From Rhodotorula mucilaginosa (lineage: Eukaryota; Basidiomycota; Microbotryomycetes; Sporidiobolales; Sporidiobolaceae), in NCBI GenBank assembly GCA_034406715.1, contig CP137874.1, positions 186,001-250,000 of the forward strand: a DNA stretch of 64,000 bases, in the 5' to 3' direction. Both the position numbers and the translations under genes were made by a program. Below the pieces are notes generated by a model. It saw only the letters and a list, made by a program, of their open reading frames with translations, ran no database searches and was not told where the DNA came from. Positions within the stretch are counted from its first letter, which is position 1, and the number at the start of each line of letters is the position of its first letter. Positions 3,462 through 21,006 of the stretch are shown here, in pieces.

Positions 3462-5462
3462 ATGCTGCGCGGCGCTTGCCGCTGCTTCGCTTCATCGCTG
3501 CTCGCCTGGACCGCTCGACCCGTCTCACGATCACCGATACAGCAGGCAGGCAGATATGAGCTCTTAGCACAGCAGCAAAGGGCGATCTCGACTACGTGGC
3601 CGAGATGCGCCGGCGGCAAAGGCAAAATCCCTCGCGACTCGTCGGTCCTCGACCTGTTCCTCGGCCCCTCGGCGGATGCATCTGGCGCAAGCTCCCCCGA
3701 CGCCAGTGCGGCAAAGGGCCAAACGCATGTCTCTCAAGGGCAGTCTCCTACCAGCCTGATCGCGGCCGCAGACTCGGACCCACCGAAATCAAAACCGGGC
3801 ATCTTTGCCTCGTTTCTGCGACGAGGACCGACTCGAAGTGCAGGGCCGTCGACGGCGGCAGCAAGTCGGCGGAGTGGCGGATCTGTCGACCTCGAAGAGG
3901 AAAGGAGGGCCCGTGACCGGAATCTCGAGACCGCCAAGGCGCTCGAACGGACTTTGCGCTCGTCGAGGGGGACCGCCGTTTCCGGTGGCGCAGCCGGTTC
4001 GGGTCTCGACGTGCGCTGCACGACGCTCGATGCACGCGGCAAGGTGTCATCCATGGTGGCGCATGTCCCGAAGGACGAGCTCTGCAGGAGATACGGCATC
4101 CAGCCGCGTGACTTGCGCAAACTCGACTCGGCCGTTCCCACCAGCGTCCCGACCATCTTGTCGCGGCGGAACTGCATCATCTTGACCATGCTGCACTTGC
4201 GCGTCGTCATCACGGCGCAAGAGGTGACTATATTCGACTCGGTCGGCTCCGAAGACAGGTGCGGCTGTTCCCGTTGCCCCTAGCCCCCCCCCCAGTGACC
4301 CTGCTGACACGGTCGGCTCCACCCGCAGTTGGCTCAAGGGAGTGTTTATCTGGTCTCTCGAGCACGCCCTCAAGGCCACCGGCAAAGCGGCTCACGGCCT
4401 ACCTTACGAGTTCCGAGCCCTCGAGTCGTGCCTCATCAGCGTCGTCACCGCTCTCGAAACCGATCTCGCCAACGTCCGCAGCCACGTGATTGAGCTTCTC
4501 GCGCACATGGAGGACCATATCGATCGCGAGAACCTGCGCTTGTTGCTGCACTACTCGCGCAAATTGTCGGTCTTTCAGAAACGAGCGACGCTCGTGCAGG
4601 AGTGCCTCGATGAGCTTCTCGCGAACGGTGGGTCTTTCTTCGGCCCTGTCGATGCGCGAGCCAGGTGCTGACTCTCTGGTCTGCTTTAAATCTAGACGAG
4701 GACCTTGCGAATATGTACTTGACAGCAAAGGCGCAGGACAAGCCGCGGGCCAACGACGATCACGAGGAGATCGAGCTGTTGCTCGAGTCTTTCTCCAAGC
4801 AGTGCGAAGAAATTGTCAGCGAGGTCGAGACGCTCGAGGTGGGTCGAACTTTATCTTCTGTACAGGGCTCGCTCCGGGGAAGATCTTGCTGACGCTTTCG
4901 CTTGCCTGCAGGCGAATGTCCGCCATACCGAGGACATTATCGAGCTCATCCTCGACTCGAACCGGAACTCGCTCCTCGGCCTCGACCTGCGCGTCAGCAT
5001 CGCTACTCTCGGCCTGACTGCAGGAGCGCTCGTCGCGGGTCTGTTCGGCATGGTGCGTCTTTTTGTGCTCATTGCTCGGGATTTGTCCCTTCTGCGACAC
5101 ACTACTGACGGGTATCTCTTTCCTACTCGTTTACTCCGTATAGAATGTGAGTGTCTTCCTTTGCCGTTGTGGGCGAGAAAGGGCCTTGTGCTGACCGCTG
5201 CCCTTCCCCACAGCTGCTGAACCGCATCGAGGAGAGCCCGTTCGCCTTCCCGCTCGTTTCCTTGACCACCTTTGCCCTCGCTGCATTCGTGACCTCGTTC
5301 GGTCTCCGCCGCTTGGCTCGCTTGCGCCGCGTCAACCTCGGCTGGCGAGACGAAGTCCGACAGCTGCAGGTCGGCGACAAATGGGGCATGGGAGGTCGGC
5401 GAGGCGGCAAAGGCGGGCATGCCAGCACTACCGGTGCGGCAGCTCGGCGTCGCAGAGACTGA
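3462..5462 (+). CDS. MRS2: Mitochondrial Mg2+ channel of the CorA/MRS2 family
   Basis: Six exons: 3462-4258, 4329-4627, 4696-4838, 4912-5052, 5144-5146 and 5214-5462, encoding about 543 aa. The N terminus (MLRGACRCFASSLLAWTARP) looks like a matrix-targeting presequence and is followed by a low-complexity stretch. The CorA/MRS2 core then runs through YGIQPRDLRKLDS, ILSRRNCIILTMLHLRVVIT and SWLKGVFIWSLEHALK to the membrane part. TM1 (VSIATLGLTAGALVAGLFGM) leads into the GMN signature, then NRIEESPFAFPLV and TM2. Family knowledge: MRS2 forms a pentamer in the inner membrane that carries Mg2+ into the matrix, and GMN is essential and invariant. By my model the N of GMN comes from a separate 3-nt exon. 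The paralogue LFM1/LPE10 is an alternative name, but the family call is secure. Confidence 0.93.
5144..5146 (+). other. MRS2: 3-nt microexon (AAT) coding the Asn of the GMN motif
   Basis: The exon before it ends with GGC ATG at 5052. The next usable exon starts with CTG CTG AAC CGC at 5214. Between them, a GTGCGT donor pairs with the acceptor TATAG at 5139-5143, then comes AAT, then a GTGAGT donor at 5147 with acceptor CCACAG at 5213. The two introns are 91 and 67 nt and both are phase 0. Skipping the triplet gives GM-LLNRIEES, which lacks the invariant Asn. Including it gives GMN-LLNRIEES, the expected motif. Confidence 0.8.
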
Positions 5463-6702: not shown

Positions 6703-6945
6703 TGTTGGCGCAAGTGCTGAAGCCTGTAGGGTTCCCGCCGCGGCTAGAGAGAAGTGTAAACGTCGGTGCTATGCAAGGACAAGCGAGATCATATCTACCT
6801 AGAGAGAAGTGTAAACGTCGGTGAGGAGAAGGAAAGAAAGAGGGAAACATGATGAAACTGAACATGGCCCTCGGACCTCCGGACTCGCCGGAACAAAACT
6901 TCCTCCGAAAATCCTCCCGACCACCACTCTCCGTACTTCCCAACA
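6703..6945 (-). repeat. LTR, low-coordinate end (3' LTR in element sense)
   Basis: This is a 243-bp LTR with TGTTGG...CCAACA termini in element orientation. It contains an internal direct repeat of about 24 bp around AGAGAGAAGTGTAAACGTCG, near 6742 and 6799. A purine tract, AGGAGGAG in element sense, abuts its inner edge at 6946-6953 and is the likely polypurine tract. The target duplication GTGAG lies just outside at 6698-6702. Confidence 0.92.
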
Positions 6946-6951
6946 CTCCTC

Positions 6952-7373
6952 CTAACAGGCACCCCAAGTCCCATCCGTCGGCCACCCGATGAGGCCGTAC
7001 CGCTTGCCGAGTTCGAGGACGCGACGAGCCGGCAGCGCCTTGGTGAGGAGGTCCGCGATGTTCTCGGTGCCGGGGATCCATTTGAGTTCGACAAATTCGC
7101 GCTCGATCTGCTCCCGGACGAACTTGAGCTTGACGTCGTGCTGCTTCTTCTCCTCCATATAGGTGGGAGAATGGAGCGCGTCGACGCCCGCCTTGTTGTC
7201 GTTCAGGATACGCAGGGGTGCGCTGTTGCCGATGGGAAGCGTAGAAATGATCGACGAGTACCACTCGAGCTCGGTGAGAGCGACTGAGATGGCACTCAGC
7301 TCCGCCTGGAAGGTCGAGAGCTGAACGGATTGCTGGCGGCGCGAGACCGTGTGGATGGTCGATCCGTCGAGCT
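6952..7373 (-). CDS. Copia RNase H C-terminal part, copy A
   Basis: This is the C-terminal part of the copia RNase H region and lies beyond the hAT insertion. It carries typical copia residues such as FQAELSAISVALTELEW, ILNDNKAGV and PGTENIADLLTKALP. The frame ends just before the polypurine tract. It is a fossil part of the interrupted polyprotein of copy A. Confidence 0.85.
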
Positions 7374-8936
7374 TAGAGAATGTTGTCCCGTGCCCGTGAC
7401 CTCCCGTGCGACGGGCACGGGCGTGAAAATTTTGACTTTTGCTCGACGGGGGAGCGCACGGGGCACGGCCCCCCGTACCCCGTACTGTACGGAGGTACGG
7501 CCCGTGTGACGGGGGAGACGGGTCGGACTTGTCTGCTTTCGAGATCAAGATCTCTCCTCACTTCAAGAGCTCTCCTCGCTTTCTGACTCGCCAGTTTGTA
7601 GCGCAAGGGAATCTCCTATCATTGTCACCCAATCTCTTCCTGCTCTACTTGCGGGAACTGACTACGAGAAGCGAGAGCTGAGGCGCTGAGGAACAGCTCT
7701 TCAGCTTCCCCGCGGCAAGTCCCTCTCTGCCGCCGACGGCTTCCCAAGTCACGGCATAACCGAGACTGCTTGGTTGGAGCCATTCTCCCAAAGGTGACCA
7801 CATGGAACCCTCCGCATCAAGGAAGACTGCGTACAGGCAAAAGCAAGGTATGATCAGCTTCCCATAACCAGGTGGTGGAAGGAGCGTCGGCAGAGAGGAG
7901 GCCGAGGAAAGGAAGCATCACGGATGAAGGAAGAGCAGGAAATAGTGGTGACAGGAAAGAGCAGAACTCACCCAAAATAGCGACCGATGGCCACGAACGA
8001 GTCGTTCGAGTCGGAGGAGATGGCGAGTTGGAAGACGAAGCAGTCGATCTTGGTGCTGTAGAGCGACGTAAACGGCTCTAGCCTCTGAAGTAGGAGAAAG
8101 AGGATCATGGGTGTAGCGTAGATTCGGTGTCTGGAGAGTGATTCTGCGCGAGGTGTGAGGAAAGATGGGGAAGAAAAAGAGAGCAAGGTCAGCAGCGGTT
8201 GCGCCAGTCCACATCGCACACCTTGTGTAGCGTAGCATGTCTCCACTTCATAAGGCGCCCACAAATCTCGCGTGGGCTGCTGCATGCTCGGACCCGTCGC
8301 CGTCTTCACAGCCAGTGCCAACAAGAGTAGGGGCAACCCGGGATTCTCTCTCGCCCCCAGCCCATGTGGGCGGTCCACAATATCGGCAGCCTTCCGAGAG
8401 TCGGCGATACAAGCACATGTTGGTGGCCGAGGTAGCTAGCCCAGAGAGAGGGAGCGGGGGAGAGGGGACAGCAGACTCACTCGACGTGCCCAATGTTTCC
8501 CACCCAATTCTGGTCCCTCGAGGCACATTCAAGCGTTGCCGAGAGCTGCTGGAGAGTTCATGGTAGCAGTGCTCCTCTCGCTGGCGCCGGGAGCATGAGG
8601 ACAAGCGTTGCCAGTGAGCAGAGAGAGCAAAAGAGACGAGGCGGACTTCGCTCAGGCCGACTCTTGCCGCTCAGGCCGCTCGACGCCGCGGAGCTTGCAA
8701 GCCTTTTTTGAAACCTACTCTTTGAGGCTAACGAAATGCTCAGAGACGCTATTTATGCAATGTAAAATCTTCTACAGATGCTACAAGTTTCTTGAAGCCC
8801 GTACTTTCCCGTCAGACGGGACTTTGATCGTCGCGACGGGTGCGGCACGGCGTATGGGGCCCGTGCGTCCCGTACGTACCGCCGTACAAATCCCCGTACC
8901 CCGTTCAGGCCCCGTTCTGAACGGCAACATTCTCTA
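7374..8936. mobile_element. Non-autonomous hAT-like DNA transposon, copy 1 (nested in copia)
   Basis: The element is 1563 bp. It has perfect 12-bp terminal inverted repeats, TAGAGAATGTTG...CAACATTCTCTA, and a perfect 8-bp target duplication GTCGAGCT (7366-7373 and 8937-8944). An 8-bp duplication and TAGNG-type ends fit the hAT superfamily. About 150 bp inside each end there is dense clustering of CCCGT/ACGGG motifs, including small palindromes, as seen in hAT subterminal transposase-binding regions. No transposase-like frame is visible, so it would depend on an autonomous relative elsewhere. The middle (about 7550-8700) is non-repetitive and unrecognised. Confidence 0.85.
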
Positions 8937-13141: not shown

Positions 13142-13384
13142 TGTTGGCGCAAGTGCTGAAGCCTGTAGGGTTCCCGCCGCGGCTAGAGAGAAGTGTAAAC
13201 GTCGGTGCTATGCAAGGACAAGCGAGATCATATCTACCTAGAGAGAAGTGTAAACGTCGGTGAGGAGAAGGAAAGAAAGAGGGAAACATGATGAAACTGA
13301 ACATGGCCCTCGGACCTCCGGACTCGCCGGAACAAAACTTCCTCCGAAAATCCTCCCGACCACCACTCTCTGTACTTCCCAACA
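13142..13384 (-). repeat. Shared central LTR
   Basis: This 243-bp LTR is nearly identical to the two outer LTRs. It acts as the 5' LTR for the low-coordinate copy and the 3' LTR for the high-coordinate copy. No 5-bp duplication separates the two interiors here, which is the mark of a shared LTR. Confidence 0.92.
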
Positions 13385-19580: not shown

Positions 19581-19823
19581 TGTTGGCGCAAGTGCTGAAG
19601 CCTGTAGGGTTCCCGCCGCGGCTAGAGAGAAGTGTAAACGTCAGTGCTATGCAAGGACAAGCGAGATCATATCTACCTAGAGAGAAGTGTAAACGTCGGT
19701 GAGGAGAAGGAAAGAAAGAGGGAAACATGATGAAACTGAACATGGCCCTCGGACCTCCGGACTCGCCGGAACAAAATTTCCTCCGAAAATCCTCCCGACC
19801 ACCACTCTCCGTACTTCCCAACA
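19581..19823 (-). repeat. LTR, high-coordinate end (5' LTR in element sense)
   Basis: This is the 243-bp outer LTR. The GTGAG target duplication lies immediately outside at 19824-19828. In element sense, the interior begins with CAAGATTCGCAGTCAGAG just after this LTR. That would be the primer-binding position, but I could not match it to a specific tRNA. Confidence 0.92.
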
Positions 19824-20934: not shown

Positions 20935-21006
20935 GGGGGTCTAGCTCATCGGTAGAGCGCTCGCTTAGCATGCGAGAGGTGCAGGGTTCGACTCCCTGGT
21001 CCTCCA
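20935..21006 (+). tRNA. tRNA-Ala (anticodon AGC)
   Basis: The 72-nt sequence folds into a cloverleaf: D arm GCTC...GAGC, anticodon stem CTCGC/GCGAG around loop TTAGCAT (anticodon AGC), and T arm CAGGG-TTCGACT-CCCTG. The acceptor 5' GGGGGTC pairs with 3' GTCCTCC and carries the G3:U70 wobble that defines alanine tRNAs. There is no intron. One odd point is a T:T mismatch at acceptor pair 6-67. It sits directly at the end of the right repeat block. Confidence 0.93.

Follow-up and report, generated by a model that had tools for sequence, protein, structure and literature searches.

The asparagine codon of the GMN signature in an MRS2 gene of Rhodotorula mucilaginosa almost certainly stands alone in a genuine coding exon of three nucleotides (AAT, positions 5144-5146), one that appears to be old, is most likely constitutive and seems to have dropped out of many annotations of related species. 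The gene lies in the window, by which we mean the whole 64,000-nucleotide stretch of DNA that was analysed (C11:186001-250000 of a 20.35-Mb genome in 19 contigs). Exons of this kind have already been published, as single-nucleotide exons in plants and in Fusarium, and the present one is notable for the residue that it encodes. It offers a clear-cut natural example of a 3-nt exon whose residue the protein should not be able to function without, and so tests directly how the spliceosome copes with exons that are too short for definition. It also represents a probable intron-gain event for which sequences carrying only the upstream intron (A), only the downstream intron (B) or both are at hand for comparison.

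The MRS2 gene and its three-base exon

Conceptual splicing revealed an intact MRS2 gene on the plus strand (window positions 3462-5462) with six exons that join in frame to give a protein of 543 residues (Table 1). The protein matched the Pfam MRS2-like family PF22099 (E 6.2e-91, 304.3 bits against a cut-off of 27), fell below the cut-off of the general CorA model (24.2 bits, cut-off 27), and found its best solved-structure matches in 8q8p and 8q8q (E 5e-85; 5.2e-85 for 8q8p), in which CtMrs2 of Chaetomium thermophilum is closed and open, respectively (PMC11919701). Once AAT is included, the alignment to 8q8p runs without a gap through GMN and IEE (GMNLLNRIEE against GMNLENFIEE), and leaving AAT out gives GMLLNRIEE by translation, a filter still in frame and short of exactly its Asn, such that both the identity of the gene and the in-frame consequence of skipping given in the original prediction hold. 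The closest named relatives, among the best 120 of 463 matches, were Rhodotorula species of the class Microbotryomycetes, and the putative function, that of the family, is to conduct Mg2+ across the inner membrane of mitochondria. A mitochondrial presequence, as predicted from the family, presumably lies in exon 1.

Recomputing the boundaries placed GM at the end of one exon and AAT alone, in phase 0, between two complete introns of 91 and 67 nt, exactly as had been proposed, with each intron holding its own good donor, CTGAC branch-like site and acceptor. All five introns of the gene run from GT to AG, contain a branch-like CTGAC and leave joins that are correct in phase, and the only AG within intron A is the acceptor itself.

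Table 1. Exons and introns of the MRS2 gene, in window coordinates.
Feature	Position	Strand	Details
Exon 1	3462..4258	+	start ATG; P0002 starts at the corresponding Met
Intron 1, 70 nt, GTGCGG..CAG	4259..4328	+	branch-like TGCTGAC 4302-4308
Exon 2	4329..4627	+	conceptual splicing
Intron 2, 68 nt, GTGGGT..TAG	4628..4695	+	branch-like TGCTGAC 4666-4672
Exon 3	4696..4838	+	conceptual splicing
Intron 3, 73 nt, GTGGGT..CAG	4839..4911	+	branch-like TGCTGAC 4887-4893
Exon 4	4912..5052	+	TM1 by alignment; 3' end TTC GGC ATG, with the Gly-Met of GMN
Intron A, 91 nt, GTGCGT..TATAG	5053..5143	+	branch-site-like CTGAC 5105-5109
3-nt exon AAT, phase 0	5144..5146	+	Asn461 of GMN
Intron B, 67 nt, GTGAGT..CACAG	5147..5213	+	branch-site-like CTGAC 5191-5195
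Last exon	5214..5462	+	first codon CTG; loop with IEE, TM2 by alignment, tail, stop

To gauge chance, we counted patterns modelled on this site. The pattern CTGACN{8,38}YAGNNNGTGMGT matched the window once, at the MRS2 site itself (100 shuffles of the window gave a mean of 0.08 matches, with at least one match in 7 of the 100), and the AAY/GTGAGT version, CTGACN{8,38}YAGAAYGTGAGT, matched the 20.35-Mb genome once, again at MRS2, with 0 matches in the reversed control. When the 161-nt span that covers both introns and AAT was dinucleotide-shuffled 20,000 times, AGAAYGT occurred in 0.76% of the shuffles and YAG/AAY/GTRMGT in 0.01%, while the complete two-intron signature never arose. Because the patterns were picked after the site had been seen and were fitted to it, these figures set a bound on chance and should not be read as a clean P value, and the weight rests on the spliced transcript and the relatives as independent evidence. 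We claim no genome-wide excess of 3-nt exons, since the counts are too small and too loose for it: GCTGAC..YAGNNNGTGMGT gave 5 matches (3 forward, 2 reverse) against 1 in the reversed control, and a looser version with 40-70 nt between sites gave 411 against 163. The MRS2 site stands outside those 5 because its own branch-like site reads ACTGAC.

Transcript and protein evidence from relatives

Transcript evidence came from P0002, a protein of 542 residues with 96% identity at 100% query coverage that keeps GMN (at the filter, ...LVAGLFGMNLLNRIEES) and that belongs to a close relative rather than to the genome under study, being one 90%-identity cluster with 7 member sequences. Its source, labelled 'lgn', we take to be assembled public reads, and its 2 contigs measure at most 1,778 nt against approximately 2,001 nt for the unspliced gene, so that it must be spliced RNA that includes the Asn. 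Evaluating very close relatives further, we found intron A in P0129, which reads GM/VRLLALL, and intron B in P0122, which reads ...CPSTQ/LLNR and differs by one residue from the window's own intron B reading, the start residue aside. These two sequences come from separate contigs, so the strain behind P0002 could itself lack one of the introns.

Named proteins of the class revealed what appears to be a widespread error at this site. We compared 27 named Microbotryomycetes proteins (P0003-P0024 and P0026-P0030, among the best 120 of 463 matches), whose class membership was checked by taxonomy, for two by the record's own name. Among these listed matches, 16 of the 27 join GM straight to Leu, with exactly the Asn missing, and nine have GMN, in which a correct microexon and the loss of an intron look the same. 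The remaining two are P0024 (Leucosporidium creatinivorum), where GMN is followed by a read-through of intron B, and P0011 (R. araucariae), which is garbled at the filter; both of these records appear to translate all or part of intron B as coding sequence right after the filter. The next matches listed (P0031-P0121) have GMN in 90 of 91 cases, the lone exception, P0032, being a read-through ORF that stops short of the motif. Against a profile built from those 90 GMN proteins, adding N to the 16 Asn-less proteins raised their scores by 8.8-10.5 bits, the window protein fell from 447.3 bits to 437.9 when its N was taken out, and of the 20 residues N scored best at this filter position. Most simply, the Asn-less records, which from their names we took to be gene predictions, would each reflect an overlooked tiny exon, with the gene finder having joined the donor of intron A to the acceptor of intron B. 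This suggests that public protein records may be wrong at the MRS2 selectivity filter in 16 of the 27 named relatives listed, and silently so, since nothing flags the loss of an in-frame codon.

When DNA of the related locus was sought in viral contigs and genome contigs, no relative was found, and the comparative evidence is therefore at the protein level. Short ORFs (P0122-P0227, n=106) supplied much of it; 81 were classified by script, and 25 were dropped for having no recognisable junction or fewer than 30 residues of context. Intron A, seen as a read-through of GM/V or GM/AS, was present in 20 of the 81, and intron B, seen as a read-through of GMN/V, in 37 (33 by script, plus P0157, P0169, P0183 and P0188, which the script had called intron-free and which we moved to this class after seeing GMN/V by eye). 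The other 24 pass from GMN into coding sequence, some of them being remote (<60% to any reference) or perhaps spliced sequences. Among 38 references, a Microbotryomycetes protein was the nearest for all 20 intron A ORFs; identity over 38-44 residues was at least 82% for 19 of them, and it was 59% for P0144, which is split by another intron. Most intron B ORFs were nearest to references that we take to be Agaricomycotina, with P0124, P0130 and P0132 nearest to Sporobolomyces and P0157 to Leucosporidium. Such nearest-reference labels are weak, drawn as they are from 34-44 residues against 38 references, and P0157 (intron B, 0.89) as well as P0164 and P0167 (intron A, 0.82), all near Microbotryomycetes, could come from other Pucciniomycotina.

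Four of the short ORFs run in frame through the intron A acceptor and so read what follows it. P0135, P0139 and P0141 continue as Q/N/VR, where the residues after Asn are donor-like and mark a microexon, and P0126 continues as Q/N/LTSRLE, which gives intron A with no intron B; P0145 was ambiguous after the start of intron A and was left out of the microexon count. The reverse arrangement, intron B without intron A, occurs in P0124, P0130 and P0132. Given Q/N/VR in three sequences, and given that 16 of the 27 named proteins listed have a gap of the Asn alone, the ultra-short exon appears to be conserved in related species. The comparison with relatives that had been suggested, carried out here on proteins, bears out the exon in those three sequences and finds others that are without A or B. 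The simplest reading of these proteins is that B would be the older position, that A was added 3 nt upstream, and that each is open to loss. For the age of A this gives a minimum, as the reference panel is without rusts and has one other Pucciniomycotina class (Atractiella). A separate observation concerns P0139, whose intron A begins GM/ASP, such that its donor, inferred from protein, would be GC (GCAAGY-like), a putative GC-AG intron adjoining a 3-nt exon; microexons are likewise flanked by a GC-AG intron in bglA of R. minuta (PMC9142197).

Splicing of the exon and rival readings

The Asn codon would have become isolated when intron A was gained or fixed 3 nt upstream of the older B, in Microbotryomycetes or in a somewhat wider lineage. 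Intron definition is the expected mode of recognition for short introns in fungi of this kind, and introns A and B would be two ordinary short introns removed in turn by this route. Whichever intron left first would leave AAT joined to a normal exon, and because it would then already be so joined, there would be no need to bind both splice sites across 3 nt. The product, ATG/AAT/CTG, would read Gly-Met-Asn-Leu with the Mg2+ selectivity filter intact, and gene predictors would usually miss the 3-nt exon and join GM to L. We infer near-100% inclusion, sequential splicing, the annotation error and the direction of intron gain. Work on plants has described a machinery unable to assemble on both sites of a microexon simultaneously, with a flanking intron of delayed splicing at 50 of 69 constitutive microexons (PMC8831610).

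Structural work bears on the role of the residue. N443 of CtMrs2 lies at the filter Mg2+ site, the G441A;M442A;N443A mutant shows reduced growth, and N443A prevents the Ni2+ toxicity of CtMrs2 expression in E. coli (PMC11919701); the human structure has N362 near Mg2+ (PMC10632456). Given an Asn at the Mg2+ site and these effects of CtMrs2 mutants, loss of the Asn should disable the channel, and the available portions of the two papers make no mention of a deletion of the filter Asn alone.

The original prediction went further and proposed that splicing acts as an on/off switch, with controlled inclusion or skipping of AAT giving conducting or dead MRS2 subunits. Skipping would indeed keep the frame and remove exactly the filter Asn, a microexon switch is known for Xlr2 of Trichoderma virens (PMC11121469), and Asn-less database proteins exist in 16 of the 27 named relatives listed, though we take these for predictions. 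We nonetheless regard regulated switching as very improbable. P0002, the sole recognised transcript-derived protein of the class, includes the Asn, intron A has a single AG, and the signals of A and B are standard, like those of the gene's other introns. Moreover, the skippable two-intron arrangement is not kept across the clade, and since relatives that are without A (P0124, P0130, P0132) or without B (P0126) are unable to skip, a switch would not be a property of the whole clade. Protein searches, one of which gave the best 120 of 463 matches, recognised no skipped transcript, and isoforms are not quantifiable in this way. It is quite improbable that a minor fraction of transcripts skips AAT depending on Mg2+ or growth state, yielding filter-less subunits that poison the MRS2 pentamer; if this were true, splicing fidelity at a 3-nt exon would tune mitochondrial Mg2+ uptake in the two-intron Microbotryomycetes yeasts.

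One could also suppose that the Asn is truly absent from the mature protein, leaving a GM-L filter, with AAT a coincidence inside one 161-nt intron. A length of 161 nt is still feasible for a single intron, and GM-L is what 16 of the 27 named class proteins listed read, but GMN is found in transcript-derived P0002, in 10 of those 27 (the nine clean ones and P0024) and in 90 of the 91 matches listed as P0031-P0121. The span further holds a second branch-like site and acceptor, its full signature arose in none of the 20,000 shuffles, and Q/N/VR recurs in three other sequences, such that a GM-L filter is nearly refuted and its probability close to nil.

Known ultra-short exons, paralogues and surrounding genome

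An exon of this size had been called extremely rare, which is fair, but examples of 1-3 nt have already been described from plants, Drosophila and fungi. We found no prior report of a 3-nt exon in MRS2 in a literature search that had most subscription journals outside its scope. The single-nucleotide exon of CYP621A in Fusarium (PMC12940212) is likewise fungal, lies inside a conserved motif (PKG there) between two close introns, and is nearly always misannotated, with confirmation in SRA reads; unlike that exon, whose 1 nt breaks the frame when omitted, the MRS2 exon has 3 nt, so that leaving it out preserves the frame and goes unnoticed, and gene and phylum also differ. Plant APC11 and VPS55 have single-nucleotide exons (PMC4674806, PMC8831610) that similarly arise from two nearby introns, are conserved over a large clade, are absent from reference annotations and have flanking introns missing in some lineages; they differ in being 1 nt and in plants, and while APC11 was tested by mutagenesis, inclusion of the VPS55 exon is variable in some plants. 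The 3-bp micro-exon of Drosophila homothorax (PMC7392893) also amounts to one codon, but it is alternatively spliced from another exon, whereas the MRS2 exon is apparently constitutive and codes a filter residue.

Fungal microexons offer further parallels. Presence of the microexon decides the activity of Xlr2 in T. virens, where it is regulated by glucose (PMC11121469), regulation being a feature of Xlr2 that was not seen for the MRS2 exon. Intron-dense basidiomycete genes with very small exons include the Phanerochaete P450s, whose shortest exon is 6 bp (PMC1184071), and bglA of Rhodotorula minuta, also with a shortest exon of 6 bp, with 5 bp given for Sirobasidium magnum (PMC9142197). Within the available text of those two papers, none of the P450 or bglA exons is of 3 nt at a selectivity-filter codon, unlike the MRS2 exon.

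As candidate backup channels, the genome contains a second MRS2-like gene (C5:876816-877506, minus strand, loci L007/L008) and a CorA-like gene on contig C9. GMN is contiguous in one ordinary exon of the C5 gene, so there is no microexon there. The same gene has a phase-1 intron in the Gly codon, TTCTTCG/GTGCGTAG..CTGAC..CTGCAG/GCATGAAC, so that, together with A and B, three intron positions fall within the GMN codons.

Several observations concern the sequence around MRS2. Just downstream of the gene, a minus-strand frame at window positions 6952-7557 gave the impression, by eye, of a Ty1/copia RNase H end, and no Pfam family reached E 0.001 when the whole frame was scanned. Five copies of the 22-mer AGAGAGAAGTGTAAACGTCGGT lie on the plus strand (6746-6767, 6801-6822, 13185-13206, 13240-13261 and 19679-19700), including two pairs spaced 55 nt, and form a dispersed repeat that perhaps marks the ends of a mobile element. 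A tRNA gene at 20935-21006 on the plus strand was the window's only Rfam match at the gathering threshold. Elsewhere in the genome, on contig C1 (approximately 6779-119761), pattern matches that show identical sequence fall into mirrored pairs with one member on each strand (6779/119668, 17082/109373, 42586/83895 and 55458/71020), which would fit a large inverted duplication with its centre around 63 kb, either real or an assembly artefact.
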